Origin: a bacterium
GTDB lineage: Bacteria > Pseudomonadota > Gammaproteobacteria > Burkholderiales > Thiobacillaceae
Reading direction: 5' to 3'
DNA length: 34,904 bases
NCBI GenBank assembly: GCA_009772925.1
Contig: WOUQ01000022.1
Coordinates: forward strand, 1-34,904
Below the pieces are notes generated by a model that worked only from the letters and a program-made list of their open reading frames with translations, did not search any database and had not been told where the DNA came from. Position numbers and translations under genes: made by a program. This document shows positions 5,327 to 34,719 of the stretch, piece by piece. Each line of letters starts with the position of its first letter. Position 1 is the first letter of the stretch.

Positions 5327-5327
5327 T

Positions 5328-10397: not shown

Positions 10398-10401
10398 GAC
10401 G

Positions 10402-11268: not shown

Positions 11269-11271
11269 GCC

Positions 11272-11481
11272 TTATTCCCGTGTGGGCGCCGACTGAGCTT
11301 CCTCGCGCAGGGATTCCTGGCTTTCCAGCGCTTGCGTGGTGGCGGATTGCTTCATCGTCACGCTGCCCAACATGACGAACAGCGCGAGGAGGGCCAGTCC
11401 GACCGCACCCACGGCGATACGGAAGCCGAGGTGGGATTTGGAAGTGGCATTGGGGGTGGCATCGGATTCGGAATCGTTCAT
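11272..11481 (-). CDS. Small single-pass membrane protein
   Basis: This is a 69-residue protein with one hydrophobic segment (about residues 18-40, FRIAVGAVGLALLALFVML), an acidic and serine-rich N-terminus, and a polar C-terminus with TTQALESQESLREEAQ that may form a short helix. The ATG at 11481 follows AAAGGAAG and was preferred to a GTG at 11517 that overlaps the upstream stop. It lies between the TerB/DUF697-like gene and the PAP2 gene on the same strand. I do not recognise the family. Confidence 0.6.
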   Translation of the reverse strand: MNDSESDATPNATSKSHLGFRIAVGAVGLALLALFVMLGSVTMKQSATTQALESQESLREEAQSAPTRE

Positions 11482-11513
11482 TTCGGCTTCCTTTGGCTTT
11501 CCGGAGGACGCAC

Positions 11514-12473: not shown

Positions 12474-12567
12474 TCATGGCTCCTTGTTAACTAAACAGAC
12501 CCGTCGGACCGAGATGCCGTCGGTGGATTTGCAGACCTTGCCTCGGACATGCCGCGCCGGACTCCGT

Positions 12568-13449
12568 TCAGGGATTGCATACATCGCAGCGTCCGGGGTC
12601 GGCGTCGCCCGGAATCATCCGCTCTTCGCGGTACGCGCACTTTGGGCAGCCCCAGACCTCGGCATACGTCTCGCGCGTGGGCGCGCCGCAGTCGGCGCAG
12701 GGCAGACCCGGCAGGCGTTCGACCAGCCAGTAACCAGGCATGCCGCAGACCGGGCACAGAGACAAGAGCTTGTCGCGCAGGTTTTCCGCCGCCAGGCGGA
12801 TGGCCTCGCGGCGCGTGGGGTGAGCATGGGCGCGGGCGTCATGCTCCAGGAACACCAAGCCGTTGTCCGCCGCCGCTTGCGCGCGCGAAAAGGCTGCGGC
12901 CAGCGTCGCCCAGTCGGCGATGCCCTTTTCGATGCGGGCATCGTCCTGGTGCGCCGGGCGCACCACAAGATGGTGTTCGGGAAAGCCCGCCTCCGCCGCG
13001 AAGCGGCGCGTGGCCTGCCAATCTCCGGTTAACGTGTGAGCGAAGCGTGTGGCCTGTTGCGCCCAGCCGGTCACCTCGATACCGCGCAGGTCATCGACGA
13101 ACAAAAGCAGTTCGCTGTTCCAGGGCAGCGCGCCAAGGAAGGGGTCGGCGCCGAAGGCACCCTCGCTCGCCAGCCCCAGGGGCAGGCCGGAGATTTCCAT
13201 GCCGATGCGCGCCTTCCCGCGGGCCGCCTCGATCTGGCTGCCGGCACGCGGGATGTCGCGCGTGAAGGTGCCCAGGGTGTCGGTGTCGAAGCCCTCCACC
13301 CGCGTCACCCGGCAGCCCAGGGCGGCATCCAGCACGGGCGCCAGGATGGCTTCCTTGCCGTGCTGGGTGAGCAGGGCGATGCGCTGGCCGGCATAGGGGT
13401 GACGGTCACTCTCGCCGGCGCGGCAAGCGGAACGGTTGGCATCACTCAT
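12568..13449 (-). CDS. DUF6671-like protein with zinc ribbon
   Basis: This is a 293-residue soluble protein. The N-terminal part (IALLTQHGKEAILAPVL, GCRVTRVEGFDTDTLGTFTR, KARIGMEISGLPLGLASEG) matches proteins annotated DUF6671. The C-terminus has four Cys pairs, CPVC and CADC then CPKC and CDVC, typical of zinc ribbons. The ATG overlaps the stop of the CBS gene by four bases, and both follow terC, suggesting one operon. No function is established. Confidence 0.75.
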   Translation of the reverse strand: MSDANRSACRAGESDRHPYAGQRIALLTQHGKEAILAPVLDAALGCRVTRVEGFDTDTLGTFTRDIPRAGSQIEAARGKARIGMEISGLPLGLASEGAFGADPFLGALPWNSELLLFVDDLRGIEVTGWAQQATRFAHTLTGDWQATRRFAAEAGFPEHHLVVRPAHQDDARIEKGIADWATLAAAFSRAQAAADNGLVFLEHDARAHAHPTRREAIRLAAENLRDKLLSLCPVCGMPGYWLVERLPGLPCADCGAPTRETYAEVWGCPKCAYREERMIPGDADPGRCDVCNP

Positions 13450-14102
13450 ATCCACAGGCTCAGCGGCGGATCGGACAGAACGGCGCGCAGGATGTCGCCG
13501 CGCGAGACGATGCCCGCCAGCCTGCCCGCCTCGTCCACCACCGGCAGCGCGGTGAGCCCGGTTTCCAGGAGGACGCGGGCGATGCGGCGGATGTCGGTAA
13601 CCGGGTCGGCGCAAATCACCGGGCTGGCCATCACCTCGCGCACCTGTCGTTCGAGTCCGCCGGTGGGGGTTTTGCCCACCAGGTCGAGCACGGTCAGCAG
13701 TTCGCGTTCCGAGACCATCCCCACCACGCCCCGTGCGGGGTCCAATACCGGCGCCTGACGCACCCCGCGCGCCATAAGCCGGTGCCAGGCGGCTTCCACC
13801 GTGTCCTCGACACGCAGGGTCAGCACCGAGCGGCCCATGACCTGATAGGCGTGCCGCACCGACTCTCTGTGCGTTTCCGGATGCAGGGACTTGGCATAGG
13901 CCGCCGCCGCGCGGGCATAGCGCGGGTCGTGGTCCTGTTCGTCCGAAACGCGGCGCCGAACGAGTTCGAATTCCGCGCCCAGTTCGTCGCCTTCCCGGTG
14001 GATGCCGCGCGCATGCCGCGCGGCGAACGCGCCGGGCACCTGGATCAGGTGCTCCAGGCTGCCGCGAAAGGTCTGCCCGGTGACGCCGTGGATGGAAAAC
14101 AT
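13446..14102 (-). CDS. Tandem CBS-domain protein
   Basis: The 218-residue protein has an N-terminal region of about 85 residues without a recognised domain, followed by two CBS domains (about 88-150 and 158-215) with VMGRSVLTLRVEDTVEAAW, VLDPARGVVGMVSERELL, VMASPVICADPVTDIRRIA and VVDEAGRLAGIVSRGDIL. CBS pairs bind adenosine nucleotides or similar ligands and regulate partners. It lies 12 bp after terC and overlaps the DUF6671 gene, so it may sense energy state for one of them. The partner is unknown. Confidence 0.85.
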   Translation of the reverse strand: MFSIHGVTGQTFRGSLEHLIQVPGAFAARHARGIHREGDELGAEFELVRRRVSDEQDHDPRYARAAAAYAKSLHPETHRESVRHAYQVMGRSVLTLRVEDTVEAAWHRLMARGVRQAPVLDPARGVVGMVSERELLTVLDLVGKTPTGGLERQVREVMASPVICADPVTDIRRIARVLLETGLTALPVVDEAGRLAGIVSRGDILRAVLSDPPLSLWI

Positions 14103-14114
14103 GGCGGCACTGCC

Positions 14115-15089
14115 TCACGCGGTGGGTTTGCGCGTGGCGATCAGGCTGGCGATCACGCTGCCTCCGATCAGCACCGCGACAACGGACAGCGAAGCCTGCA
14201 CCGGCACGTGATACCAGGGCATGATGAGCATCTTGGTGCCGATGAAGGTGAGCACCATGGCCAGGCCGTATTTCAGCAGATGGAAGCGGTCCGCCACGTC
14301 GGCCAGCAGGAAGTACAGCGCGCGCAGGCCCATGATGGCGAAGATGTTGGAGGTGAAGACGATGAAGGGGTCGGTGGTGATGGCAAAGATGGCCGGGATC
14401 GAATCGACCGCGAACACCAGGTCGGTGACCTCGATCAGGATCAGCACAAGGAACAGCGGCGTGAAATAGCGCACGCCGTCCTTCATCACGGTGAATTTCT
14501 CCGCGTGATAGTCCTCGGTGATGCGCAGATGCCGACGCGCGAATTTCAGCACCGGGTTCTGTTCCAGATCGGGGGTCTTCTCCGCCATGACCAGCATGCG
14601 TATGCCGGTGACGACCAGGAAAGCGCCGAAGATGTAGAGCACCCAGGAATACTCGCGCACCACCCAGGCTCCGGCCAGGATCATGATGGTGCGCATGGCG
14701 ATGGCGCCCAGCACGCCATAGAGGAGCACCCGGCGCTGGTATTCGGCGGGGACGTGGAAGGCGGTGAAGATCAGCAGGAAGACGAACACGTTGTCGACCG
14801 ACAGCGACTTCTCGATCAGATAACCGGTAAAGAATTCCAGCGCCTTGCGGTCGGCGATCTCCGGCCCGACCGTGCCGTTGAGATGCCACCACAGGCCGAC
14901 GTTGAACAGGAGCGCCAGGCCGAACCAGGCCAGCGACCACAGCGCGGCTTCCTTGACGCTCACCTTGTGCGCTTTCCTGCCGCCTAGAACGAACAGGTCG
15001 AGCGCCAGCATGACCAACACGAAGGCGATGAAGGCGGCCCACATCCAGGGCTCGCCGATGGAGATGGCGTGATTCATGTCCGGTGCCAT
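14115..15089 (-). CDS. TerC/Alx-family membrane protein
   Basis: This is a 324-residue TerC-family protein with nine or so membrane segments. Signature blocks are FFTGYLIEKSLSVDNVFVFLLIF and LILIEVTDLVFAVDSIPAIFAIT, whose acidic residues are thought to bind a divalent metal. Members such as E. coli Alx are linked to manganese export; others sit in tellurite-resistance loci. GGAGGGG precedes the ATG at 15089. It follows the membrane-anchored protein at 15106-15708 by 16 bp. No yybP-ykoY-type riboswitch was recognised, and there is no room for one. Confidence 0.88.
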   Translation of the reverse strand: MAPDMNHAISIGEPWMWAAFIAFVLVMLALDLFVLGGRKAHKVSVKEAALWSLAWFGLALLFNVGLWWHLNGTVGPEIADRKALEFFTGYLIEKSLSVDNVFVFLLIFTAFHVPAEYQRRVLLYGVLGAIAMRTIMILAGAWVVREYSWVLYIFGAFLVVTGIRMLVMAEKTPDLEQNPVLKFARRHLRITEDYHAEKFTVMKDGVRYFTPLFLVLILIEVTDLVFAVDSIPAIFAITTDPFIVFTSNIFAIMGLRALYFLLADVADRFHLLKYGLAMVLTFIGTKMLIMPWYHVPVQASLSVVAVLIGGSVIASLIATRKPTA

Positions 15090-21791: not shown

Positions 21792-22802
21792 TCAGCCGGA
21801 CCGGTGGGCCGCCCGCGCCAGGCGATCGCGCACCGCCAGCCAGTCCGGACTTTCCGGCGGCGCTTCGACCAGGATGACGCCGTGGCCGGCATTGTCCAGC
21901 CGACGCAGGGTGGCGTAGAGGACACGGGCGTAGCCGGCGGCATCCGCCGGCATGGGCTCGACATGGGCACTCGGGGGCAGGGCAGCGGCCTCGCCCAGGG
22001 CAAGTACCGTCACCCGCAAGCCACACTGCGCCAGTTCGTCGGCACGCGCTGCCAGCGCCCCGGCGGGCCACACCTCGAGGGGCGTGGCGGGGGCGTAGTG
22101 GCTGGCCAGGGCGCCCGGCACGCGCGGGTTGTCGGCGCCGCCCACGCGATGGGGCAGCATGACCGGCTGTCCCAACTCCGCTTGCAGGCGGGCCGGGGAG
22201 ACGCCGCCGGGGCGCAGCAGCACGGGCGCCTCGCCGAGCAGGCCGACGATGCTGGATTCCACCCCCACCGCGCAGGGCCCGCCGTCCAGGATCAGGTCCA
22301 CCGCTGAGCCCAGTTCGTCGCGCACGTGCGCGGCGGTGGTGGGGGAGACACGGCCGAAGCGGTTGGCGGAGGGGGCCACCAGGGGACCGGCGGCCCGCAG
22401 CAGGGCCAGGGCCACGGGGTGCGAGGGCACGCGCAGGGCGACGCTGTCCTGGCCGCCGGTGATGACGTCCGCCACCTCCGGGCGGCGCGGCAGCACCAGG
22501 GTCAGGGGCCCCGGCCAGAAGGCGCGGGCCAGGCGCCGGGCCACCTCGGGCACGGTCCGCGCCCACTGCTCGAGGTCTTCGGCGGCGGCGAGATGGACGA
22601 TGAGGGGATGGTCGGCGGGCCGGCCCTTGGCGGCGAAGACGCGGGCGACGGCGGCCGGGTCGCGGGCGCTGGCGCCCAGGCCGTACACCGTCTCGGTGGG
22701 AAAGGCGACCAGGCCGCCGGCTGCGAGGAGGGCGGCGGCGCGGGCGATGTTTTGCGGCGTGGCGGCGACCAGGCCGCCGTCGGCCAAAGCGGTGGATGTC
22801 AT
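21792..22802 (-). CDS. Sua5/YrdC-type threonylcarbamoyl-AMP synthase
   Basis: This is a 336-residue Sua5-type enzyme. The N-terminal YrdC/TsaC domain (about 15-205) has GGLVAFPTETVYGLGASA, KGRPADHPLIVH and VAPSANRFGRVSPTTA. A C-terminal Sua5 domain (about 215-335) follows SHYAPATPLEV. It makes threonylcarbamoyl-AMP for the t6A37 tRNA modification. The ATG at 22802 was chosen because upstream codons lie in the gap after sbtB. It follows sbtB by 23 bp, so it may be co-transcribed with the bicarbonate-uptake genes, an unusual partner for a housekeeping gene. Confidence 0.92.
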   Translation of the reverse strand: MTSTALADGGLVAATPQNIARAAALLAAGGLVAFPTETVYGLGASARDPAAVARVFAAKGRPADHPLIVHLAAAEDLEQWARTVPEVARRLARAFWPGPLTLVLPRRPEVADVITGGQDSVALRVPSHPVALALLRAAGPLVAPSANRFGRVSPTTAAHVRDELGSAVDLILDGGPCAVGVESSIVGLLGEAPVLLRPGGVSPARLQAELGQPVMLPHRVGGADNPRVPGALASHYAPATPLEVWPAGALAARADELAQCGLRVTVLALGEAAALPPSAHVEPMPADAAGYARVLYATLRRLDNAGHGVILVEAPPESPDWLAVRDRLARAAHRSG

Positions 22803-22825
22803 GACGGCGGCTGCCCGCCTTCCGC

Positions 22826-23116
22826 TCAGTTCTGCAATTGCACCGGGCAGGTGAACATGAGCAGGCCGTAGTCCTTTTCGTACTGGGCCTGCAGCCGCTC
22901 GACGATGCGGCCGCACAGGTCGGGGTCACCGACGACGTCGATGCGAATGTTGCCGCCGGCGCTCCACTTGCCGGTGCGCAGACCATGGGTGCCGCGCCCG
23001 CGCGCCTCGGTGATGGTGTAGCCCTTGGCCCCCTGGGCCATGATCTCGTCGATGAGCATGTCCTCCAGAACCGCCTCGGACAGGATGGTCAGCAGCAGCA
23101 TGTCTTGCGCGGGCAT
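22826..23116 (-). CDS. sbtB: SbtB-like PII-family protein
   Basis: This is a 96-residue PII-like protein that follows sbtA by 3 bp and has GGAGG before its ATG. The T-loop region (about residues 33-56) reads YTITEARGRGTHGLRTGKW, as in SbtB proteins, and the KDYGLLMFTCPVQ strand is near the end. In cyanobacteria SbtB binds adenyl nucleotides and controls the SbtA bicarbonate transporter. The C-terminal Cys-containing extension (CGPEGC) of many cyanobacterial SbtB proteins is absent; the chain ends PVQLQN. Regulation of SbtA here is inferred from pairing. Confidence 0.88.
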   Translation of the reverse strand: MPAQDMLLLTILSEAVLEDMLIDEIMAQGAKGYTITEARGRGTHGLRTGKWSAGGNIRIDVVGDPDLCGRIVERLQAQYEKDYGLLMFTCPVQLQN

Positions 23117-23119
23117 GGA

Positions 23120-24061
23120 TCAGCCTCCTTGGTGGATGAAGCGGGCCATCCACAGGTAGATTGGGATGCCCAGGAAGATATTGAAGGGGAATGTCATGCC
23201 CAGCGAGGCGCCGATGGACAGGGCCGGATTCGCCTCGGGCACGGCGATACGCATGGCCGCCGGGGCGGCGATGTAGGAGGCGCTGGCGAACAGGGTGGCG
23301 AGCAGGAAGGTGCCGCCCACCGTGAAGCCGAGCATCCAGCCGGTGACCGTTCCCAGGGTGGCGGAGAAGATCGGCATCAACACGGCGAAGCCGGCGAGGA
23401 AGGCGCCGTACTCGCGCAGCGCGGCGATGCGGCTGGAGGCGACCAGGCCCATTTCCAGCAGGAACAGGGCCAGTACACCCTTGAACAGGTCGAAGAACAG
23501 CTTGTCCAGGGGCTTGATGCCTTCCGCGCCGGCGACGAAACCGATGACCAGGCCGCCGGCGAGCAGGTAGATGCTCTTGCCGAAGAACACCTCGTGCAAC
23601 AGCTTGCCCCAACGCACCGTGCCCTGGCCGTAGCGCGCCAAGATGACGCCGATCACCAGGGCGGGGATTTCCAGGAGGACCAGGAAGACGATGAGGTAGC
23701 CCTCGAAATCGAGCTTTTCCTGGCCCAGCAGGGTGATGCCGACGGAGAAGGTGACAACGCTCACCGAGCCGTAGTGGGCGGCGATGGAGGCCGAATCGGC
23801 GCGGTTCATGCGGCCGAGATAACGCAGCACGGGAAAGGCCACCAGGGGGATGAGGGCGCCCACCAGGACGATGACCAGGCCGGCGCCGAGCAGGTCGACC
23901 ACCGCATGCTTGGACATTTCCACCCCGCCCTTGAGGCCGATGGCCAGCAAGATGAAGATGGACAGCGCCTCGTAGATGCTGCCGGGAATCTTGAGGTCCG
24001 AGCGCAGCAGGCCCGCCGCCACCCCCAGCACGAAGAACAGCACCACCGGTTCGAAACTCAT
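23120..24061 (-). CDS. sbtA: SbtA, Na+-dependent bicarbonate transporter
   Basis: The 313-residue membrane protein belongs to the SbtA family. It has two inverted five-helix halves, with GSIYEALSIFILLAIGLKGGVEM and AHYGSVSVVTFSVGITLL in the first and FLLEMGLVASSRIAALREYG and ATLFASASYIAAPAAMRIA in the second. SbtA imports bicarbonate with Na+ across the inner membrane, and the adjacent SbtB is its regulator. GGAGGA precedes the ATG at 24061. It sits in the CO2-concentrating region next to the carboxysome operon, which supports the role. It is 52 bp after the 100-aa protein gene. Confidence 0.93.
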   Translation of the reverse strand: MSFEPVVLFFVLGVAAGLLRSDLKIPGSIYEALSIFILLAIGLKGGVEMSKHAVVDLLGAGLVIVLVGALIPLVAFPVLRYLGRMNRADSASIAAHYGSVSVVTFSVGITLLGQEKLDFEGYLIVFLVLLEIPALVIGVILARYGQGTVRWGKLLHEVFFGKSIYLLAGGLVIGFVAGAEGIKPLDKLFFDLFKGVLALFLLEMGLVASSRIAALREYGAFLAGFAVLMPIFSATLGTVTGWMLGFTVGGTFLLATLFASASYIAAPAAMRIAVPEANPALSIGASLGMTFPFNIFLGIPIYLWMARFIHQGG

Positions 24062-24113
24062 CGCGTCCTCCCGCCGGATACTGCCGGCAGCAGTTCATTC
24101 CCCGAGGGGATGC

Positions 24114-24416
24114 TCATTCGTCCTCGTCCAGCTCGGGGTCCCAGCCCCGCTCGCGGCCCCGGCGCGTGGCCCAGTCGTAGAGTTCGGCATGGCGCGCGCG
24201 CAGGTCGTCGGGCAGGCGGCTGGGCAGGTTGCCGTACTCGTCCCAGCGCCGGTTCACCTGTTCCATCAACTCCTGCATGCGTTGCAGGTCCCAGCCGGCG
24301 CAATCTTCCCCGCGCGGCAGAAGTTCGAACAGCCAGGCGTCCAGAACGATGCGGCCCAGGGTGGTGATGCCGTGGGTATCCTGATTGAAGCCGGCATAGG
24401 TCATCTTCTCGGCCAT
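24114..24416 (-). CDS. 100-residue protein in bicarbonate operon, unknown
   Basis: This is a small soluble acidic protein, probably helical, with conserved-looking tracts TYAGFNQDTHGITTLGRIVLDAW, MEQVNRRWDEYGNLPSRLPDDL and a C-terminal DPELDEDE. No cysteine pairs or membrane segments. GGAG lies about eight bases before the ATG. It is 4 bp after the protease gene and 52 bp before sbtA, so it belongs to the same transcript. I do not recognise its family. A regulator or accessory of a transporter is the obvious idea but is not shown. Confidence 0.6.
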   Translation of the reverse strand: MAEKMTYAGFNQDTHGITTLGRIVLDAWLFELLPRGEDCAGWDLQRMQELMEQVNRRWDEYGNLPSRLPDDLRARHAELYDWATRRGRERGWDPELDEDE

Positions 24417-24420
24417 ATGC

Positions 24421-25245
24421 TTACTCCGCCCATTTGCCCAGGTAGGCGTTGATCACGTCCAGCACCGCCTGGGCCTTGATGACCAGACCCAGGTCGATCA
24501 TCTCCGAGCCCATGACCATGGAAGTATTGTTGGCCGGCACCGGCACGGACACCAGATGGTTGGCCTCCTCGCGGAAGAACACCGCCGCCACCACGCCGGC
24601 GAACAGGAATTTGCGCCCGGCGCTCTGGCTGGGACGCAGGGGATCGGGCTGGTAGACGAACACCGGGCTGCCGCTGGAGCCGGGATACACCGCCGCATCG
24701 ATGAGGAATTCGGCGCGACCCTCGAAATCCAGGGCCATGGGGGTGGCGGTGGTGCCTCGGCGCAGGATGGGCATCAGGTTGACCTGGTCCCAGACGCCGC
24801 TGGGATAGCCGACAAATAGCACCTCCTCGAGGGCGTCCAGCGCGCGCAGGGTGGCGGCGTCCGGCGCCAGGCGGCTGTCGATGGGCTGGTAGTAGAGTTC
24901 GACACCCTGGTCACGCGCCGCCTGCTCGAGCGGCCGCATGGGGATGATGGCGAGGTCCACCTCCGGGTTCGGGTGCATGAACCAGGCCTGGGGGAAATCC
25001 TCGATGTTGAGCTGGAAACGCTGGCCGAAGGCCGGTTGCCCGTTCTGCTTCTGGGTGAACACCAGGCCGCCGCGGCGCACGCCATCGACCAGGTGGCGGT
25101 TGGTGACGATGAAGGTGTGGGTGCCGCGCGGATGCGCGTGGCTCACCACGAAGGCGGTGCCGGAACCCTCGCTGCCGTCCTCCAGGACGGTATCCACGCG
25201 GATGGTGTTGAACAGCAGCTTCTTGGTGAGGGAATTGATTTCCAC
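24421..25245 (-). CDS. Trypsin-like serine protease, cytoplasmic
   Basis: The 274-residue protein starts at a GTG with GAGG upstream. It shows the trypsin-fold catalytic triad in order: His in FIVTNRHLVDG, Asp in EVDLAIIPM and Ser in VYPGSSGSPVFVY. There is no signal peptide or membrane segment, so it acts in the cytoplasm, unlike most DegP-type proteases, and there is no PDZ domain. It lies 8 bp after the sulP stop and 4 bp before the 100-aa gene. Its place between two anion transporters is unusual. The target is unknown. Confidence 0.8.
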   Translation of the reverse strand: MEINSLTKKLLFNTIRVDTVLEDGSEGSGTAFVVSHAHPRGTHTFIVTNRHLVDGVRRGGLVFTQKQNGQPAFGQRFQLNIEDFPQAWFMHPNPEVDLAIIPMRPLEQAARDQGVELYYQPIDSRLAPDAATLRALDALEEVLFVGYPSGVWDQVNLMPILRRGTTATPMALDFEGRAEFLIDAAVYPGSSGSPVFVYQPDPLRPSQSAGRKFLFAGVVAAVFFREEANHLVSVPVPANNTSMVMGSEMIDLGLVIKAQAVLDVINAYLGKWAE

Positions 25246-25252
25246 GACGGCC

Positions 25253-27382
25253 TCAGGTCTGTGACGCGGGCTTCAGGGGGCAGAACAGGTCTTCCTCGGC
25301 GGCGCCGCCCAGGCGCTCGTAGATGGCGAAGATGGCCTGGTCCTCGGTGGCGAAGATGTTCTCCTGGCCCACCAGTTCGAACAAGCCGGTCTGGCGCATG
25401 ACGTCGATCACCTGCTTCTTCAGGCCGGAGAACACCAGGGTGACACCGGCGGCGCGCAGGCGTTCGATGAGGTGATGCACCACCTCCTCGCCCGAGGCGT
25501 CCATCTGGTTGATGGAATCACCGACGATGAGCACGTACCTCGCCTTGGGATGCTCCGCCAGAGCCTCCAGCACGGCATCCTCGAAGTAGGAAACGTTGGC
25601 GAAATACAGCGAGCCGTCATAGCGCATGGCCATGATGTGCTCGCTGGTGGGCAGGTCCGGGTTCACCTTGATGTCGCGCAGGGTGCCGTCCTTGAAGCGC
25701 CCCAGCAGGGCCACGCGGGGCTTCATGGTGCGCAGCAGGAAGAGGACGATGGCCAGGCCGGCGCCCACCAGGATGCCGTTGTCCAGGTGGGGAGCGAAGA
25801 ACAGGGTGGCGCAGAAAGTGACGATGGCCGCCACGCCGTCATGCTTGTGCGCCTTCCAGGCGTGCTTGATGGCCTCAACGTTGACCAGGCCACCCACCGC
25901 CATGACGATGATGGCCGCCAGCACGGCCTGCGGCAGGTGGTACAGCAAGGGGGTCAGGAACAGCAGGGTCAGCGCCACGACCAGCGCGGTGAATACCGCG
26001 GACAAGCCGGAGGTGGCACCCATGCTGGCGTTCACCGCGGTGCGCGAGAAGGAACCGGAGGAAGGGTAGGCCTGGGAAAAGCTGCCGACGATGTTGCCCA
26101 CCCCCTGGCCGATCAGTTCCTGGTTCGGATCCAGGCGCTGCCGGGTCTTGGCCGCCACCGCCTTGGCGATGGAAATGGCCTCCATGAAGCCCACCAGGGC
26201 AATCACCAGTGCCGCCGAAAGCATCGCGCCAAACTTGTCCATATCCAGGGTGGGCATGGAAATGGCCGGCAGCCCCTGGGGAATGGACCCCACCACTTCA
26301 CCGCCGCCCACCAGCTTGAAGTCCCCCTTGGAGATCTTGCGGATACGATAGACGGTATCCTCGACCTCGGTGTCTTGCGGCACCGCGCCCGCCAGATAGA
26401 CCGCCGTGGTATTGCCCTCGGCGTCGACCGCGCGCACCACCGACATCTTGCGCAGGGCCTTGCGCAGGGAGGCCGTCGACTCCTCGGTCTCCTGCACCAC
26501 CAGCCGCATCAGGTCGGCCTCGGCGTGCAGCGAGACGATCAGGGAATTGTCATGCTCGTCGGCCTTTTCCGCCTGCAGCAGGTTGGCGTTGATTTGCGCC
26601 AGCTCGCCGCGCAGGCGGGCCAGTTCGGCGTCGGCGGCCACCACCTTTTCCACCTGGGCGCGCAACATGGGATCGCGCAGATGTTCCAGGCTGCCGGCGG
26701 CATTCTTCTCGAAACCGATGGCCCAGGCCAGCACCGTGCTCAACACCACGGCGATGAGCACGCCGGGTAATTTTGGAGCGTATTTCTTCAGGGCCCACAT
26801 CAACAGCATGGCGCCCACGCCCATGGCCAGGGTGGGCAGGTGCGTATCGCCGACCTGCCTGAACACGCCGACGATGTCGTTCATGAACGACTCGCTGCGC
26901 GGCATCGACACGCCAAGCAGCTTCGACAACTGCGACAGGGCGATGATGATGGCGGCCGCGTTGGTGAAACCGACGATCACCGGGTGCGACAGGAAGTTGA
27001 CGATGACGCCCAGCTTGAACACCCCCAGCGCCAACTGGATGAGGCCCACCAGCAAGGTCAACATGATGGCCAGGGCGATGAACTGGTCGCTGCCGGGAGC
27101 CGCCAGGGTGGCCAGGGCGGAGGCGGTCAGCAGGGAAACCACCGCCACGGGGCCGGTGGCCAACTGGTTGGAGGAGCCCCACATGGAGGCCAGCATCACC
27201 GGCAGGAAGGCGGCATACAAACCATAGTAGGCGGGCATCCCCGCCAACTGGGCGTAGGCCATCGACTGGGGGATCAGCACCAGCGCGACGGTGAGGCCGG
27301 CCATGAAGTTGACTTTGACATCGCCGCTGGACATCGGAAACCAGCGCAGGAAGGGAAGGAAGCGGAGCAGTTTTTCGTTCAT
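25253..27382 (-). CDS. SulP-family anion transporter with STAS domain
   Basis: The 709-residue protein is a SulP transporter: MAGLTVALVLIPQSMAYAQLAG in TM1, then the SulP core up to about residue 560, and a C-terminal STAS domain (about 590-695). Between the core helices, residues about 226-360 form an insert not found in typical SulP proteins, with a coiled-coil-like part (EKVVAADAELARLRGELAQI) and DNSLIVSLHAEADL. Some SulP proteins carry bicarbonate, others sulfate; proximity to sbtA and a carbonic anhydrase favours bicarbonate, as inference. The ATG at 27382 was preferred; a GTG at 27403 is possible. Confidence 0.9.
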   Translation of the reverse strand: MNEKLLRFLPFLRWFPMSSGDVKVNFMAGLTVALVLIPQSMAYAQLAGMPAYYGLYAAFLPVMLASMWGSSNQLATGPVAVVSLLTASALATLAAPGSDQFIALAIMLTLLVGLIQLALGVFKLGVIVNFLSHPVIVGFTNAAAIIIALSQLSKLLGVSMPRSESFMNDIVGVFRQVGDTHLPTLAMGVGAMLLMWALKKYAPKLPGVLIAVVLSTVLAWAIGFEKNAAGSLEHLRDPMLRAQVEKVVAADAELARLRGELAQINANLLQAEKADEHDNSLIVSLHAEADLMRLVVQETEESTASLRKALRKMSVVRAVDAEGNTTAVYLAGAVPQDTEVEDTVYRIRKISKGDFKLVGGGEVVGSIPQGLPAISMPTLDMDKFGAMLSAALVIALVGFMEAISIAKAVAAKTRQRLDPNQELIGQGVGNIVGSFSQAYPSSGSFSRTAVNASMGATSGLSAVFTALVVALTLLFLTPLLYHLPQAVLAAIIVMAVGGLVNVEAIKHAWKAHKHDGVAAIVTFCATLFFAPHLDNGILVGAGLAIVLFLLRTMKPRVALLGRFKDGTLRDIKVNPDLPTSEHIMAMRYDGSLYFANVSYFEDAVLEALAEHPKARYVLIVGDSINQMDASGEEVVHHLIERLRAAGVTLVFSGLKKQVIDVMRQTGLFELVGQENIFATEDQAIFAIYERLGGAAEEDLFCPLKPASQT

Positions 27383-27415
27383 CGTCGATGCAGGCCGGTT
27401 CACATCCGGCCAACC

Positions 27416-27447
27416 TTATCGTCATATCAGGAAAGCCTGATATTATA
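27416..27447. promoter_or_regulatory. Palindrome and promoter between sulP and theta-CA genes
   Basis: ATATCAGG (27424-27431) and CCTGATAT (27436-27443) form a perfect 8-bp inverted repeat with a 4-base centre. A perfect TATAAT on the minus strand (27442-27447) can serve as the -10 of sulP, though no clear -35 was seen. TTA, TCA and TGA triplets occur at 27416, 27427 and 27438, each 11 bp apart, matching the TNA-N7/8-TNA pattern described for CbbR. A binding site for a CO2-responsive LysR regulator is inferred. Confidence 0.5.
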
Positions 27448-27479
27448 CACGGCGCCCTTCTGCCCCGGCCTATTCCAGC

Positions 27480-28631
27480 ATGTTCTCCAACCGCGCCAGC
27501 ATCGCCAGCATCCTGCAAGGATTTCACGTCGACGACCGCATGCTCGGCTACAACAGCTTCGTCGCCAGGCTCTACAACTGGTGTCTGTCGCTGGGTTTCA
27601 TGCCTGGAAAGATCATGCCCTCGCGCGCGTTCTGCTCCGACGAGAGCCAGGGTTTCCCCATCATCCTTCTGGCCAAGCACTTCGGCGCCTTCCCGTTCAA
27701 CCACGGCCGCGTCGGCGGCATCATCTCCCTGGACCGGCACGGCCCGCACGCCGACCATGGCCGGGATCTGCTGCTGATCCAGGCCAGCCACGTCGGCTAC
27801 GACCCGGAAACCGGCGAGTTCGGCGTCTATCGCCGCCTGCATACAGAACAGAACAGCAACTCCTGCAGCTGCGGCAAGATCGGCTCGATCCTGGAGTGGT
27901 ACCGGGCCGGTTTTCACTATGCGCGGGAAAACGTGCGGCTGATTCGCCATGGCGACACGCCCGCCCTGCTCATCGACAACCAGCTCCTGTCACGCGACCG
28001 CGGCGATGGCATCTTCCTGGTTGCCGACAACCTCATCGACGGGGTGGTCCGGCACAATCATCTGCCACCCCCCCTGGCCGCCCGCAGCACCGGCATGGTC
28101 TTCGCCGCCGCGCCCGGCCTGATCGCCCGACTGGGCGCGGCAACCTGGCCCGCGCAGGGCAGCATCGCCATCGGCCCGCGGCTGTCGGCGGACGATTTCT
28201 TTTTCGAGCGCGAATTCGTCAATCCGGATCTCAGCAAGGACCAGCTGGAACGCAACATCCTGCCGACCATGCCGTGGATCCTGACCTCCAAGCAGCCCTT
28301 GCTCACCGCCGCCCGCGCCAACACCATCGCCGAATTCGACCGCGCCTACCGCAGCCTGGCCCAGTTCCCCAGATTGCGCGGCAAGAACCTGCTGTTCCTG
28401 GCCGGCCTCAACATCGATATCTCACCCTATCCCGGCGAACACTTTCCCCTGACCAAATTCATGCCCTGGGCCGCCTACCTGCAGCGCGAGGATGGCAGCC
28501 GGGAAATGCTCGAACAGGACGATCTCATCGAGCGCCTGGCCGCGCAGCCCGACGACAACCCCTCGCAACTCGCCCTCGACCAGGCCATCGCCACCATGGT
28601 CCAGCATCGCGACGTGCGGGTGCGGCTGTAG
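27480..28631 (+). CDS. Theta-class (LCIB-like) carbonic anhydrase
   Basis: The 383-residue protein matches the LCIB/C domain, with the diagnostic run QASHVGYDPETGEFGVYRRL followed by TEQNSNSCSCGKIG. Candidate zinc ligands are Cys52 (in RAFCSDESQG), His104 and Cys131 (or Cys129), with Asp54 nearby. LCIB-type proteins, first known from algal CO2-concentrating systems, include active theta-carbonic anhydrases; bacterial homologues are less studied. No signal peptide is seen, so it should act in the cytoplasm. It is divergent from sulP across 97 bp. No strong ribosome site precedes the ATG. Confidence 0.85.
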   Translation: MFSNRASIASILQGFHVDDRMLGYNSFVARLYNWCLSLGFMPGKIMPSRAFCSDESQGFPIILLAKHFGAFPFNHGRVGGIISLDRHGPHADHGRDLLLIQASHVGYDPETGEFGVYRRLHTEQNSNSCSCGKIGSILEWYRAGFHYARENVRLIRHGDTPALLIDNQLLSRDRGDGIFLVADNLIDGVVRHNHLPPPLAARSTGMVFAAAPGLIARLGAATWPAQGSIAIGPRLSADDFFFEREFVNPDLSKDQLERNILPTMPWILTSKQPLLTAARANTIAEFDRAYRSLAQFPRLRGKNLLFLAGLNIDISPYPGEHFPLTKFMPWAAYLQREDGSREMLEQDDLIERLAAQPDDNPSQLALDQAIATMVQHRDVRVRL

Positions 28632-28646
28632 TCCTGACTTACCGAG

Positions 28647-28682
28647 AAAAAAGGCAATGGCACCGGCACGGCCTTAGCCGTG
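28647..28682 (-). terminator. Possible terminator after csoS1D
   Basis: On the minus strand CACGGC-TAAG-GCCGTG (28682-28667), overlapping the csoS1D stop, forms a perfect 6-bp stem. A run of six T follows at 28652-28647. The T-run is 14 bases past the stem, further than in a standard intrinsic terminator, so it may be weak. It would close the carboxysome operon in the gap to the convergent carbonic anhydrase gene. Confidence 0.35.
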
Positions 28683-29303
28683 GCGGGCCTGCCGGTTAAT
28701 CTGTGCGAGCGCCTGCTCGACGGCGCGCTGCGCCTCCTCGGCCTCGGCTTCGTTGCCCATCATGGTGAGGCGGCCGAAATTGCCGAACGGCTTCACGTCC
28801 ACCAGGGTGATGTGCGCGGCCTTCTCCGCCTCGTTGGCGGCATACACGGCATAGCCGGCCGGCTCCACTTCCAGGATGAACATGCTCTTGCCGGGCAGGA
28901 TCATGGAGCCCTTGCGCATCTGGCGGTTGATCAACGTGGTGTGGTCCGGGGTGATGCCGCGGATGATCTCGTTCCAGGCGATGCGGCAGGCGTGCCGGGT
29001 GTCCAGGGTGGTGTTGAGCTGGCGCAGGATGATGTCGCCCGCCTCCATCACCTCGCTCTGGTTGCGATAGTGGATTTCCATGGAGCCGAAGGAACGCTCC
29101 ACCACCTGCTCGCCCAGGTGCACGTTGGTTTCCTTGAGGGCGATGTCGGACAGGCGGTGCACGGCCATGCCCGGCGCCACCTCGATCCACAGGCAGGCGT
29201 CGCCGGGCACCGGCAGAAAGCCCTGCGAGGAGGTGGCCAGATAGGAGGCCAGCTGCGGTTGCAGCGAGTCCATGAAGACGAAGGTGCGCAGGGTGACCTT
29301 CAT
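28674..29303 (-). CDS. csoS1D: CsoS1D tandem-BMC shell protein
   Basis: This is a 209-residue tandem BMC-domain protein with strong similarity to carboxysomal CsoS1[52 protein letters not shown] and [15 protein letters not shown]. CsoS1D forms stacked pseudohexamer trimers with a large gated pore; in studied members the gate is set by an adjacent Glu-Arg, seen here as E69-R70 in VVERSFGS. It ends the cso-cbb operon, 4 bp after cbbO. Confidence 0.92.
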
Positions 29304-29307
29304 GGCT

Positions 29308-31665
29308 TCAGCGGGTCAGCCCCATGTACAGCATGGGCAGTTTCTCGGGCAAACGCTCGACGTGGTCGAGCACGGTGAAGTTCTTCGCACCGAAGATGCG
29401 CGAGACGTACTGGTCGGCGTGCGGGTCGAGCGACAGGGCGTAGGTGGTGATGCCGTCGCGCTGCAACTCCTCCACCGCGCGCTTGGTGTCGAAGCGCAGG
29501 TATTGCGGATCGCGCACGTCGTTGTCGGCCGGTTCGCCGTCGGTGATGATGAACAGGATCTTCTTGTTCTTAGGCTGCTGCTTGAGAAAGCTGCCGGCGT
29601 GGCGCAGGGCGGCGCCCATGCGCGTGGAATAGGAACCCTGCATCGCCGCCAGGCGGGCCTTGACCAGGTCGTTGTAAGGCTGGCCGAAGTCCTTGAAGCG
29701 GTAGTAGTGGACGTCGTGACGGCCGTCGGAACAGAAACCGTGCAGGGCGAAGGGGTCGCCGATCTTGTCGAGGGCGTCGGAGAGCATGACGGTGGCCGCG
29801 CGGGTGAGGTCCATCACCGAGTAGTCCTTGCCGCGCACCTTGTCGTTCGACGACTCGGACATGTCGAGCAGCACCATGACGGCGAGATCTCGCAGGTTGC
29901 GCTTGTAGCGCATCATGATGCGGGTGTCGGGCTGCTGGCCCATGCGGATGTCGATCATGGCGCGCACGGCGGCGTTGATGTCGAGCTCGTCGCCGTCCTC
30001 GACCCGGCGGATGCGCTGCATGCCCTGGGGAATCATGGACTCGATGAGGAACTTCAGGCGCGAGATGACCGGCTTGTTGTCCTCGATGATCTTTTCGATC
30101 ACTTCCAGTTCGCCGGTTTTGGGGCGGCGTTCCAGCACGGTCACCCAGCTCGGCCGTTCCAGTTGGATCTGGTAGTCCCACTCGTGGTAGTGCACCGGGT
30201 CGGCGACGGGCTCGCGGCCTTCCAGTTCGTTGATGGTCTTGCCTTCCTGGTCGAGCCAGAACGGTGTTTCCAGCACCCAGACTTCCTCGGCGTCGTCGCC
30301 GGCGAACTCGTTGTTCACCTCGTTGACCATCTCCATGACGGAGACCTTCTTGCGCACCTGCTGCTGGCGCTGCCAGGTGGCCTCCAGGGCCTCCTGCTCG
30401 TCGTATTCCTCGGATTCCCAGACCGTGCGGTTGTCGTCGCGGTAAAGGGCGCGCAAGGCATCGGTGCGCGGGTTGAATTCCGGCAGGGGGATCTGGCCGA
30501 GGTGATGGGCGAGTTCGACGCCGATGTTCCAGCTTGCCTGGTTGGTCGACAGGTCGGGCTCGGCGCGGAACAGCTCGACGCCCTTTTGCACCCACGGGTG
30601 CGGATCGAGGTCATCCTGGGCGAGCAGGGCACGCGCCAGGCGGTTGAGCAGGTCGCCGACGCTCTCCGGCGCGCGCGTGTTCAGCGGCGCATGCAGGGCC
30701 AGCCAGGCGGCGCGCATGCCGGGGAACTGGCGGCAGGCGAGCTCCTCGACGCGGGCGTCCTCGATGGCTTCGATGATCGCCATCTGCGTGGTGTTGAGCA
30801 TCTGCATGGACAGCGGCGCGCCGGTGAACACCAGGTGCGCGGCGCAATGGTTGGCGGCGGCGCGGTAGAGCTCGACGCCCGGGACGATGGCCTCGGCGGG
30901 CGTCTCCTCGCCCAAGGGGCGGTAATCGTCGTAGGCGTCGGCGATGTAGATCTGGTAATGCGCGATGTAGGGCTTCAGGCCCTCGCGGCTTTCGTAGTCG
31001 CCGGCGGTGGGACGCAGGAAGAAATCGCGTCCCCACATGGCCCGCAGGTAGATGTTGAGGCGCCGCTGCACGTCGACGAACAGTGTGCCCTTGCGCTCCG
31101 ATTGCAGCACCGAGAGGGCGTCGGGGCTTTGCAACGAGAAGTACTTCACCTGGCCTTCGAAGTCGGCACGGTAGGCCTGGGCGCCCCATTGCACCCAGCG
31201 GCGCAGGCCGCCCAGGGTAAGCTGGGTGAGCAGCCGGTCCAGGTTCTCCAGCATCGGCCGCAGGCCGCGCGAGGCTTGCGCCAGCATGATGGAGAGGACG
31301 GTGAGGTACTTGCGGAACAGATCCTCGTCGCCCAGGCGCTCGGCGGCGAGCGGCGCCGTGGCGGCGATCAGGGTGAGGACCTGGCCGGAAGTCTTGGAGG
31401 CCATGCCGAGCAGGAAGTTGACCAGGTCGGGCAGCACGTCCTCGCCGATGGCGCGCGATACCTCCGGCATCTCCTGGATGTAGGTGACCACCAGGTCGTC
31501 GCCACGGCCGAGGTTGTGCAGGGCGACCGCGCCCTTGATGTAGTTGTCCAGGCCGCGCGCCGAGAACACCCGGGCGGCCTCGTTCCAGGAAGCCTGCAAC
31601 ACCTCAAGGGCGCCGCCGGGGAGTTCCTCGAGGAGTTCCTGGTATTCGTCGAGATGGATGGCCAT
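29308..31665 (-). CDS. cbbO: CbbO, Rubisco activase adaptor
   Basis: The 785-residue protein is CbbO: an N-terminal helical region and a C-terminal von Willebrand factor A domain with a MIDAS motif, DMSES at about residue 598, and [19 protein letters not shown]. CbbO works with the hexameric AAA+ CbbQ and docks onto inhibited Rubisco to help release sugar phosphates. The gene follows cbbQ on the same strand. The 91-bp gap is filled by a 24-bp perfect inverted repeat, and no clear ribosome site is seen before its ATG. Confidence 0.93.
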
Positions 31666-31756: not shown

Positions 31757-32680
31757 TCAGAAATAGGTGGTGACGGCGGAATCCAGGGCGTCGCGCATGT
31801 CCGGGTCGTCGGTGATCGGACGCACCAGGGCGACGCGGCAGGCGGCCAGCGGGGCCACCCCCTTGGCGATGAGGGAGCCGGCGTAGATCAGCATGCGGGT
31901 GGACAGACCCTCATCCAGGCCGTGGCCCTTGAGGTTGCGCGCGCGCTCGCCGATGTGCACCAAGTTCTTGGCCACCTCCAGGGTCACGCCGGATTCGTGG
32001 GCGACGATCTCGGCCTCGACGTCGTGCTCCGGATAGTTGAAGTCGAGGGCGCCGAAACGCTGCTTGGTGGACTGCTTCAGGTCCTTCATCAGCGACTGGT
32101 AGCCGGGGTTGTAGGAAATGACAATCTGGAAATCGGGGTGGGCCTCAATCAGCTCGCCCTTCTTTTCCAGGGGCAGCACGCGGCGGGCGTCGGTCAGCGG
32201 ATGGATGACCACGGTGGTGTCCTGGCGCGCCTCCACCACTTCGTCCAGATAACAGATGGCGCCATGACGGGCGGCGACGGCGAGCGGGCCGTCCTGCCAG
32301 CGGGTGCCGTTGGCGTCGAGCAGGAAGCGGCCGACCAGGTCCGAGGCGGTCATGTCCTCGTTGCAGGCCACAGTGATGAGGGGCTTGCCCAGCTTCCAGG
32401 CCATGTACTCGACGAAGCGCGTCTTGCCGCAACCGGTGGGGCCCTTGAGCATGATGGGCATGCGCACGGAATAGGCCGCCTCGTAGAGTTCCACTTCGTC
32501 GGCCACCGGACGGTAATAGGGCTCGCTTTTCACCCGGTAGGCGGCGAGAACATCGGCGACCGCGCCAGTGTTGGCGGCGGGACGGCTGGCGGCCGCCGCG
32601 CTCGCCGCCTGCTGGCTGGCGGCCCGCGCCAGGGCTTCCTGACGCGGCGAGTAGGTACGCATGAAGGGATCGTTACGCAT
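31757..32680 (-). CDS. cbbQ: CbbQ, Rubisco activase AAA+ ATPase
   Basis: The 307-residue MoxR-type AAA+ protein has Walker A GPTGCGKT (80-87), Walker B ICYLDEV (D146, E147), and the CbbQ-like blocks [16 protein letters not shown] and [14 protein letters not shown]. An N-terminal extension of about 45 residues, rich in Ala, Gln and Arg, precedes the core. CbbQ hexamers with CbbO remodel inhibited Rubisco. It follows mcdB by 39 bp. Confidence 0.93.
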
Positions 32681-32719: not shown

Positions 32720-33034
32720 TCAATCCGGCCAGACGCGGGAGGGGAACAGGGCGCTGCCGCTGTCCTGGACGATGTTGGCGCTGGCGGGGGCCGGCGCCTT
32801 CGGCTTCGCCGGCGTGGCGCGAACCGCGCGCTTGGGAGCGGGCTTGGCGGCGGGTTTGACCGGCGCCGCGGGCTTCGGCGCCGCGGGCTTCGGCACCACG
32901 GGTTTGGCGGGCGCGGATTTGGCCGCGGCGGGTTTGGCCGCCGCCGGCTTAGCCGCCGGTTTCGACGCGGCGGATTGCTGGGAGGCGCGCGCCAGGCGCA
33001 CGCTGGCGGACAGCTTGTCTTTCACATTGGTCAT
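32720..33034 (-). CDS. mcdB: McdB-like carboxysome positioning protein
   Basis: The 104-residue protein is mostly disordered: an N-terminal charged stretch (MTNVKDKLSASVRLARASQQ), a Lys/Ala/Pro-rich middle (about 24-80, with PAAAKPAAAK repeats), and an end of LFPSRVWPD with Trp102 third from the C-terminus. In proteobacterial alpha-McdAB systems a small disordered McdB with a conserved C-terminal tryptophan is encoded directly after mcdA. Here the ATG overlaps the mcdA stop by four bases. Identification rests on context, disorder and the Trp, not on alignment. Confidence 0.75.
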   Translation of the reverse strand: MTNVKDKLSASVRLARASQQSAASKPAAKPAAAKPAAAKSAPAKPVVPKPAAPKPAAPVKPAAKPAPKRAVRATPAKPKAPAPASANIVQDSGSALFPSRVWPD

Positions 33035-33666
33035 GATGTGATCACCTCATCAATGATGGCTTCGATTTCAGCCGCTGCTTGCGCGCCCCGGCTGCCCATT
33101 TGGTACACCGACACACCTTCCAGCGCCGCGCCGCGATAAGCGGCCCGGCGCCGCACCACCGCGGTCAGCACCGGCACCCCGAACTCGGCCAGTGCCTCGT
33201 GCATGGCCGCGGACAGCGCGCTCTTCGGCTCCAGCTGATTGAGCACCAGGAAGGCCCTGAGCCCCGGATTCACGCGCCGCGCCTCTTCGATTTCCTGGGG
33301 CAGGCGCAGGCTGGCCCAGAGATCCACGGGCGACGGCAATACCGGAATCAGCGCCACGTCGCAGGCGCGCAGGGCCTGCTGCGAGGCGTGGCTTTCCACC
33401 GATGGTGGACAGTCCAGCACCAGATGCTGGTAGGCGCGGTAGTTCTGATGCAGGGTACGCGCATCCCACTTGCCGCCGATCTGCTTCACGGTCGCGGGAA
33501 ACGGCGCGCTGCCCTGACTGGCCCACTGCACCGACGAGCCCTGCGGGTCCAGGTCGATGACCACGGTCTCACCCCGGCGCGCCAGGCCCGCGGCCAGGTT
33601 CATGGCCAGGGTGGTCTTGCCGGCCCCACCCTTCTGATTGATGACGGCGGTCACCCGCGTCGGCAT
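33031..33666 (-). CDS. mcdA: McdA, ParA-type carboxysome positioning ATPase
   Basis: This is a 211-residue ParA/MinD-type ATPase with the deviant Walker A KGGAGKTT at residues 12-19 and Walker B-like LVLDCPPSV. Members in carboxysome operons, called McdA, use nucleoid-bound ATPase gradients to space carboxysomes. The ATG at 33666 follows GGGGAG and lies one base after the acRAF stop. The longer frame upstream would enter acRAF. Next to mcdB, so the two form a pair. Confidence 0.88.
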   Translation of the reverse strand: MPTRVTAVINQKGGAGKTTLAMNLAAGLARRGETVVIDLDPQGSSVQWASQGSAPFPATVKQIGGKWDARTLHQNYRAYQHLVLDCPPSVESHASQQALRACDVALIPVLPSPVDLWASLRLPQEIEEARRVNPGLRAFLVLNQLEPKSALSAAMHEALAEFGVPVLTAVVRRRAAYRGAALEGVSVYQMGSRGAQAAAEIEAIIDEVITS

Positions 33667-33667
33667 G

Positions 33668-33937
33668 TCAACTCCCCGCCGCCGGTCGCAGCGCATTGAC
33701 GCGCGCGGCGAACCCGAATTCCCGCTCGCCCATCGCCGTACCCTCCGCCGCTTCCACGGTGATGTTGACGTAGGTGGTGCCGAAGTTGATGTTCTGCGGA
33801 TGCAAGCCCGTCTCCTCGGTCAGCGCGGCGAGGGCGTCGAGAAAGGCGCGGGTTTCCCCGTAGCGCGCGAACTCGAAGCGCCGGAACAGGTTCGGTGGCG
33901 TCCCCCGTGCTTCCCAACCCTCGGGCAGGTCAGCCAT
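33668..33937 (-). CDS. acRAF, PCD-like Rubisco assembly factor
   Basis: This is an 89-residue pterin-4a-carbinolamine dehydratase-like protein (GWEARGTPPNLFRRFEFARY, LTEETGLHPQNINFGTTYVN). In alpha-carboxysome operons this paralogue, acRAF, assists form I Rubisco assembly and lacks full dehydratase motifs; here only an HP remains of the catalytic histidine pair. The ATG overlaps the bacterioferritin-like stop by eight bases, with GGAGAGG ahead. Confidence 0.88.
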   Translation of the reverse strand: MADLPEGWEARGTPPNLFRRFEFARYGETRAFLDALAALTEETGLHPQNINFGTTYVNITVEAAEGTAMGEREFGFAARVNALRPAAGS

Positions 33938-34367
33938 GTCCGGCCTCTCCGGCCAGCATGCCATCCAGCTCGCGCACGTGGGCCATCTCTTCGCGCAGTA
34001 TGCCCTCCAGCAAGGCCGCGTCCTCGGCGTCACGCATGCGCGTGGCATGCGCCAGAGCCTCCTGGTAGAGACGCACCGCGTCCACTTCCAGGCGATGGTC
34101 CGCGTCCAGCATGGCCTGCACGTCGCGGCCCAGGCGGGCCGGTGGCAGGTTGCCGGCGGATGGCGCGACGCCCAGGCGGATCAAGCGTTCCATCAGGCGC
34201 TCGGCGTGCTCCAGTTCCTCCACCGCCTCGCGGCGCAGGTGGGCCGCCAGGTCCTCATTCCCCCACAGTCTGGCCAATACGCTTTGCGCCAGATACTGCT
34301 GCACGGCGCTCATCTCGTGGGTGAGCGCGCGCGATAGCCAGCCCAGGGTGCGAGGATCCACGCTCAT
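33930..34367 (-). CDS. Bacterioferritin-like protein of cso operon
   Basis: This is a 145-residue four-helix ferritin-like protein. Putative diiron ligands are E18 (THEMSAVQQY), E51 and H54 (EELEHAERLME), E94 and E127/H130 (EEMAHVRELD). Bacterioferritin-like genes in alpha-carboxysome operons are common, with no settled role. The ATG at 34367 lies 13 bp after the csoS1B-like stop; the longer frame to 34595 would lie inside that gene. Confidence 0.85.
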   Translation of the reverse strand: MSVDPRTLGWLSRALTHEMSAVQQYLAQSVLARLWGNEDLAAHLRREAVEELEHAERLMERLIRLGVAPSAGNLPPARLGRDVQAMLDADHRLEVDAVRLYQEALAHATRMRDAEDAALLEGILREEMAHVRELDGMLAGEAGHG

Positions 34368-34380
34368 CGGCGTCAGTCGG

Positions 34381-34719
34381 TCAGCTGCGGGTCGAGGTGA
34401 TCTCGGCATCGCGTCCACCACCGCCGGCATCCGGCGTGGCGGGCAGGATGCCTTCCACTTCGCCGTGCACGCGGGCGATGATGTGGGCGGCGACCAGGCC
34501 GTCACCGACACGCTCGCAGGCGTCGGCACCGGCACGCACGGCAGCGTTGACGGCGCCGGTTTCACCACGCACCAGCACGGTGACGTAGCCGCCACCGACG
34601 AATTGACGACCGATCAGGCGCACTTCGGCGGCCTTGGTCATGGCGTCGGCGGCTTCAATCGCCGGAACCAGTCCGCGGGTTTCGATCATGCCCAGGGCAA
34701 TGCCTGTCATGTTAGCCAT
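34381..34719 (-). CDS. CsoS1B-like BMC shell protein
   Basis: The 112-residue protein has one BMC domain (about 5-95; GIALGMIETRGLVPAIEAAD, GGGYVTVLVRGETGAVNAAV, ARVHGEVEGILP) and a C-terminal tail DAGGGGRDAEITSTRS. CsoS1 proteins form hexamers that tile the carboxysome shell; CsoS1B is the slightly longer paralogue, so this is the likely match. TGGAG precedes its ATG. Its C-terminal coding half is almost identical to the partial csoS1 to the right. Confidence 0.92.
   Translation of the reverse strand: MANMTGIALGMIETRGLVPAIEAADAMTKAAEVRLIGRQFVGGGYVTVLVRGETGAVNAAVRAGADACERVGDGLVAAHIIARVHGEVEGILPATPDAGGGGRDAEITSTRS

Follow-up and report, generated by a model that had tools for sequence, protein, structure and literature searches.

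An LCIB-type gene beside SulP and SbtA/SbtB transporter genes and the alpha-carboxysome genes in a Thiobacillaceae genome

The window analysed here comprises the complete contig C52 (34,904 bp), one of the 76 contigs of a Thiobacillaceae genome of 3.22 Mb. Next to alpha-carboxysome genes, it harbors an island of genes coding for a SulP/SLC26-type anion transporter, the SbtA/SbtB pair, and an LCIB-type protein (theta/beta carbonic anhydrase fold). All these genes, named in an earlier sequence-only reading, were recovered by the Pfam and NCBIfam profile matches from which the gene identities are taken (Table 1); the interval delimited in that reading (21792-28631) holds the island, except that its low end (21792-22916) is a Sua5/TsaC-type gene lying outside it, and the stretch that runs from sbtB to the last base of the LCIB gene measures 5.8 kb instead of the 5.5 kb previously given. 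On the minus strand, the genes are ordered sulP, trypsin-like gene, 100-amino-acid gene, sbtA, and sbtB, with gaps of 7, 4, 52, and 3 bp, spaced like a single transcription unit, the PII-like domain gene sbtB directly adjoining sbtA. The LCIB-type gene lies on the plus strand, starting 76 bp from sulP and converging with csoS1D at a distance of 42 bp. The whole genome contains one SbtA (PF05982), one LCIB, and four SulP genes; no DabA (PF10070) match was found across it. The alpha-carboxysome set comprises csoS1 in the window and, on another contig (C31), CsoS2 at C31:42073 and the RuBisCO large subunit at C31:40016. Gene content and recurring order make this look like the composite CO2-concentrating locus proposed earlier, and we lean slightly towards the view that it serves inorganic-carbon uptake in a bacterium with carboxysomes, where LCIB would hydrate CO2 into the bicarbonate pool.

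The LCIB-type protein matches PF18599 over residues 22-171 with a score barely above the curated cut-off of 25, and that of a relative (L127; L0xx and L1xx denote loci of LCIB, or of the trypsin-like gene, in other genomes, and Gxxx the genomes) stands at 24.9 bits, barely below it. The membership suggested by this weak match is upheld by the predicted fold, which is that of LCIB/PtLCIB4: 225 of the 383 residues align with PtLCIB4, at 17% identity over the aligned part, and extra segments are present. The named relatives of the gene (62-86% identity) come from Thiobacillus, Thiobacillaceae, Hydrogenophilus, Burkholderiales, and unplaced metagenome-assembled genomes. Two earlier ideas were dropped: a two-domain, DabA-like reading drawn from the strand/helix order, since the structural alignment gives one LCIB domain (model residues 16-351), and the idea that the Ser at position 47 of PtLCIB4 is the sign of an inactive enzyme, since PtLCIB4 is called active in the accessible part of a review. 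In L024, a second LCIB-type gene (7411-8457) lies near the first one, is 30% identical to it, and keeps the zinc-site residues.

One alternative is that LCIB has no catalytic function and serves instead as a scaffold, barrier, or regulator, a role put forward for the algal LCIB/LCIC complex. According to the accessible text of the sources, Chlamydomonas LCIB and LCIC are without carbonic anhydrase activity in vitro (PMC8825250), both as recombinant and as native proteins, and a non-catalytic barrier role has been proposed for them; thus, zinc-site residues are no proof of catalysis. Moreover, H90, which is not invariant, and R118/R119 align near the second-shell His162 and Arg194 of CrLCIB, a placement that is uncertain. 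Nevertheless, this explanation appears rather improbable, given that C52, H104, and C131 (the Cys-His-Cys zinc ligands) and D54 (the catalytic Asp), paired with PtLCIB4 residues through sequence alignment only, are invariant in 24 out of 24 LCIB sequences, one divergent paralogue included, and that the window protein shares the CSDE motif with PtLCIB4, described as active in the accessible review literature.

Concerning the transporters, SbtA matches the solved Slr1512 SbtA chain 7cye (E 2.3e-26), and the nearest solved chains of SbtB are 2cz4 (TTHA0516) and the cyanobacterial SbtB 6wue (E 7e-6). SulP carries Sulfate_transp and STAS domains, scores 450.5 bits against TIGR00815 (cut-off 380.45), and would be 709 rather than 716 amino acids long if its start were the ATG at 27382. 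Since its structural model is poor (predicted local distance difference test, pLDDT, 49), only an insert of about 130 amino acids (residues ~233-367; pLDDT about 70-89) is described; it is predicted to form two long helices (36 and 33 residues; a hairpin) plus strands, and should presumably be periplasmic by analogy with the SLC26 topology. With 134.3 bits against the NCBIfam BicA model, far under the cut-off of 880, the protein is not filed as BicA, and its best solved-structure match is the plant SULTR4;1. These two data would fit a SulP that moves sulfate out of or into a sulfur-oxidising cell, the island being SbtAB plus LCIB with an inserted sulfate gene, and so would the existence of five loci (L014, L018, L031, L032, and L029) in which the cassette of trypsin-like gene, 100-amino-acid gene, sbtA, and sbtB is present without a whole SulP beside LCIB, L029 keeping a SulP remnant of 46 residues. 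We regard this explanation as unlikely because SulP lies in one tight unit with sbtAB, and in L015, L016, L030, L074, and L075 an opposite-strand SulP takes the place of sbtAB, adjoining the 100-amino-acid gene. Furthermore, in the accessible text on Thiomicrospira pelophila (PMC12628692), the genes sulP-CS and sbt-CS both map close to the carboxysome locus, and each makes Escherichia coli accumulate inorganic carbon. This also contradicts the earlier statement that SbtA and SulP are alternatives elsewhere. By analogy with that organism, SulP and SbtA/SbtB acting on bicarbonate may be taken as the established part of the mechanism, with bicarbonate as the putative substrate of this particular SulP.

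In order to assess the recurrence of the linkage, the surroundings of LCIB were compared between genomes. A contig scan for LCIB returned 24 loci; LCIB is carried by 24 of the 117 genomes of the window's family and by 24 of 321 genomes of a class sample (G367 as a broken fragment). The 23 family loci examined represent all the family carriers except G682 (short locus), several of them with short flanks, whereas the controls were 40 stretches of 11.15 kb at set places in eleven genomes (ten LCIB carriers plus G560, not a listed carrier); the outside-family set consisted of 29 loci, G367, G476, and G561 (broken or partial genes) being excluded. Gene calls in some relatives' loci derive from a rough purpose-written script. 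A SulP, SbtA, DabA, Chr, or antiporter-type subunit lies within 5 kb of LCIB in 23/23 family loci (22/23 without the antiporter class) vs. 0/40 controls, one control stretch having a CbbO/CbbQ-type match. The corresponding Fisher value (4e-16) is overstated, because the reference proteins were partly drawn from the loci being counted and related genomes do not provide independent observations; the linkage within the family is more than chance. Over this distance, the family loci contain SulP (17), SbtA (13), antiporter (5), Chr (4), DabA (2), the trypsin-like gene (19), and the 100-amino-acid gene (14). The gene order thus recurs elsewhere, as the sequence-only reading had asked to check, LCIB and SulP standing within 5 kb of each other in 17/23 family loci and 7/29 outside. 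Outside the family, a partner is found in 11/29 loci (9/29 without the antiporter class; 9/20 where at least 3 kb are available on both sides), and the remaining 18/29 have no gene of these transporter or antiporter kinds over the same distance, some of them having housekeeping neighbours.

These partnerless loci are what would be expected if LCIB were an ordinary cytosolic carbonic anhydrase for biosynthesis or pH, its proximity to transporters being a mere clustering of carbon genes; similarly, among ten neighbour proteins from ten partnerless or similar loci there were no known carbon transporters and several housekeeping types. The complete linkage in the family compared with the controls, and the patchy distribution of LCIB, unlike that of a housekeeping enzyme, render this explanation improbable.

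The LCIB gene is not tied to SulP: in other loci SbtA, Chr, DabA, or complex-I-like genes stand at most 5 kb away from it, and some loci have no gene of these kinds at that distance. On its downstream side, LCIB faces csoS1D in the window and L009; another SulP in L010, L013, L015, L030, and L075, and a different one in L073 and L074; Chr in L076-L079; and a GGDEF gene in L018. DabA plus four antiporter-type subunits adjoin it in L012 and L016 (downstream side) and in L119; this DabA is large (about 1,070 amino acids in L012), and the subunits are more than in the two-gene DAB. In L011, L014, and L017 a complex-I-like set is found downstream, composed in L014 (Pfam) of Proton_antipo_M, NADHdh, a fused 30/49-kDa subunit, and a 20-kDa subunit, which possibly serves carbon uptake. 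Outside the family, the partners include DabA (L025 and L119), SulP (L020, L024, L117, L122, L123, L130, and L132), and Mrp-type genes in L124 (MNHE and MnhB by Pfam) and L130 (by similarity). When seven downstream states are mapped onto an LCIB tree of 20 loci, which has long branches and open forks, at least eight changes are required vs. a minimum of six, L073/L074 being scored as SulP2 from the neighbouring gene while their nearest gene is another SulP, 32-33% identical. DAB sets and complex-I-like sets each appear at two separate places of the tree, and repeated partner exchange is modestly supported. A wider, speculative idea, to which we assign a low probability, is that LCIB is a swappable carbonic anhydrase partner, one soluble protein docked by different lineages onto SulP, SbtA, Chr, DAB, and Mrp- or complex-I-like modules. 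CO2 would then be hydrated in a single direction and in step with uptake, and such systems would form a third type of coupled CO2 capture beside the cyanobacterial NDH-1MS and DAB.

Two side observations can be added. A Chr-type transporter gene at 3977-5383 of the window shares 77% identity with the Chr located close to LCIB in L010. Besides, the region 9300-15042 contains a Na/Ca exchanger, an uncharacterised gene, a TerB/DUF533-like gene, and a DUF6671 protein of 824 amino acids; parts of this cluster recur near LCIB in L009, L010, L011, and L074.

Regarding the carboxysome, the related locus L009 shows csoS1, two small genes (which we take to be csoS4), csoSCA, and csoS2 in an unbroken run. 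In the family, CsoS2 occurs in 22/24 LCIB carriers vs. 42/93 non-carriers (p 2e-5); in the class sample, in 3/24 carriers vs. 62/297 non-carriers (p 0.43), and a general tie between LCIB and the alpha-carboxysome was consequently rejected. RuBisCO (PF00016, whose matches may include RuBisCO-like proteins) is present in 19/24 class-sample carriers vs. 146/297 non-carriers (p 0.005); the five carriers without a match are G367 (the fragment), G476, G513, and G582 (less than 80% complete), and G561 (97% complete). At distances of up to 5 kb from LCIB, carboxysome genes occur in 7/23 family loci and 1/29 others. Their vicinity, together with the frequency of CsoS2 among the family carriers, might suggest that LCIB provides the carboxysome with a second carbonic anhydrase, located inside the shell beside CsoSCA; this is very improbable, in view of the rarity of CsoS2 among the class-sample carriers and of the presence of csoSCA in L009.

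In the inorganic-carbon uptake locus that we favour, SulP and SbtA/SbtB would probably be made as one unit; SulP and SbtA would bring bicarbonate into the cell, with SbtB as the putative switch of SbtA. LCIB, a cytosolic protein in this scheme, would most likely hydrate the CO2 diffusing in or leaking from the carboxysome, which would then join the bicarbonate pool feeding the carboxysome; since the genome yielded no DabA match, it would represent the visible CO2-capturing part of the locus. Its catalysis and the direction from CO2 to bicarbonate are proposed by analogy. If nothing restrained it, a cytosolic carbonic anhydrase should deplete the bicarbonate pool and harm such a system, so the activity of LCIB would need holding to one direction or place, and some restraint would have to prevent the short circuit; a contact between LCIB and its varied membrane partners is allowed by the data, not proven. 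This requirement weighs against the proposed role, as do several of the findings reported above: the in vitro inactivity of the algal proteins, the missed BicA cut-off, the non-independence of close relatives' loci, and the five carriers without RuBisCO. To these must be added that, because of the 18/29 partnerless outside loci and the scarcity of CsoS2 in the class sample, LCIB cannot count as a general component of carboxysome systems.

The trypsin-like gene follows LCIB closely, being present in 24/24 family LCIB carriers vs. 3/93 non-carriers (G632, G638, and G679), a count that omits two weak matches of ~58 residues (G651 and G658). It is not always beside LCIB, lying ~16 kb off in G618 and on a separate contig in some draft genomes. 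His51, Asp97, and Ser191, presumably the triad of the family, are invariant in 10/10 aligned sequences; no signal peptide is evident by eye. In two class-sample genomes where LCIB was not found, the trypsin-like gene stands immediately behind carboxysome genes: L081 has csoS2...cbbQ-cbbO-trypsin-like-sbtA-sbtB, and L082 has cbbQ-cbbO-csoS1D-trypsin-like, with DabA nearby. In the four loci checked (L083-L086), more distant class-sample matches (29-42% identity) lack carboxysome genes in their vicinity. As a guess, the protein might cleave a carboxysome or transporter protein. The 100-amino-acid protein is conserved across nine relatives (59-91% identity).

The divergent promoter region contains an inverted repeat, ATATCAGG-AAAG-CCTGATAT, at 27424-27443, with arms that are conserved in L009 and L012, and an extended -10-like TG-A-TATTAT on the plus strand, ending at 27446; an extended -10-like element, TGNTATTATA, was counted manually upstream of LCIB in 17/23 family loci. 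The repeat and the -10-like element would fit joint control, and nothing beyond it.

Table 1. Features of the island and of the adjoining carboxysome genes in the window
Feature	Position	Strand	Evidence or remark
Sua5/TsaC-type threonylcarbamoyl-AMP synthase	21792-22916		not part of the island
sbtB, PII-like regulator, 96 amino acids	22826..23116	-	PF00543 58.5 bits
sbtA, Na+-dependent bicarbonate transporter family, 313 amino acids	23120..24061	-	PF05982 377.9 bits, cut-off 27
conserved 100-amino-acid protein	24114..24416	-	no Pfam or NCBIfam family match
trypsin-like protein, 274 amino acids	24421..25245	-	PF13365 40.7 bits
SulP/SLC26-type anion transporter with STAS, 716 amino acids	25253..27403	-	PF00916, PF01740
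divergent promoter region	27404..27479		between sulP and the LCIB gene
LCIB-type (theta/beta carbonic anhydrase fold) protein, 383 amino acids	27480..28631	+	PF18599 25.2 bits
csoS1D-type shell protein	28674..29303	-	PF00936 30.4 bits (BMC domain)
cbbO, VWA-domain protein beside cbbQ	29308..31665	-	PF00092 34.9 bits
cbbQ, AAA+ protein	31757..32680	-	PF08406 117 bits, PF07728
ParA-family ATPase of carboxysome locus	33031..33696	-	PF13614; NF041546 198.3 bits vs. 180
pterin-dehydratase-like gene	33668..34048	-	PF01329 28 bits
csoS1 major shell protein	34381..34719	-	PF00936 88.3 bits; NF053791 (CsoS1) 185.5 bits vs. 166

The carboxysome genes, which also include a ferritin-like gene, run up to the contig end. 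Three of their labels are our assumptions: csoS1D, taken from the gene order, cbbO, and acRAF for the pterin-dehydratase-like gene. The csoS1D-type protein scores 227.4 bits against the NCBIfam CcmP model, under the cut-off of 340.

The interest of the locus rests on the LCIB protein and the trypsin-like gene. In the accessible reviews (including PMC8825250), algae depend on LCIB to grow in air, although the protein is inactive in the test tube; related bacteria keep an LCIB-type protein beside varying carbon-uptake machines, so its role becomes testable in bacteria. What LCIB does could be studied in E. coli with a locus as small as this one, which combines a single LCIB-type gene with two candidate bicarbonate transporters and has no DabA. 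The word LCIB is absent from the main text of a survey of bacterial carbon-uptake genes (PMC10880623), which suggests that surveys omitting it miss a recurrent neighbour of these transporters. No report of this LCIB-transporter-carboxysome arrangement was found among the papers listed in a search covering mostly literature outside subscription.

Among the known systems, that of T. pelophila (PMC12628692) likewise has SulP and SbtA together near an alpha-carboxysome locus; it differs in that, according to the accessible text, its genome also has DAC/DAB, unlike the genome analysed here, in which no DabA match was obtained. The paper names no LCIB. DAB/DAC (DabA-DabB), a membrane-coupled carbonic anhydrase, likewise has a beta-carbonic-anhydrase-like protein encoded beside membrane uptake parts, as described in the available part of PMC13144422. 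The window LCIB is not DabA, as the lack of PF10070 matches indicates, and its association with membrane proteins seen here is one of genes; LCIB itself adjoins a DabA cluster in L012, L016, L025, and L119. Compared with algal LCIB/LCIC and the diatom PtLCIB4, which are theta/beta carbonic anhydrases, the window protein is bacterial, with no pyrenoid, and its gene adjoins transporter and carboxysome genes; the conversion of CO2 to bicarbonate proposed for it is the same role as that proposed for LCIB in Chlamydomonas.

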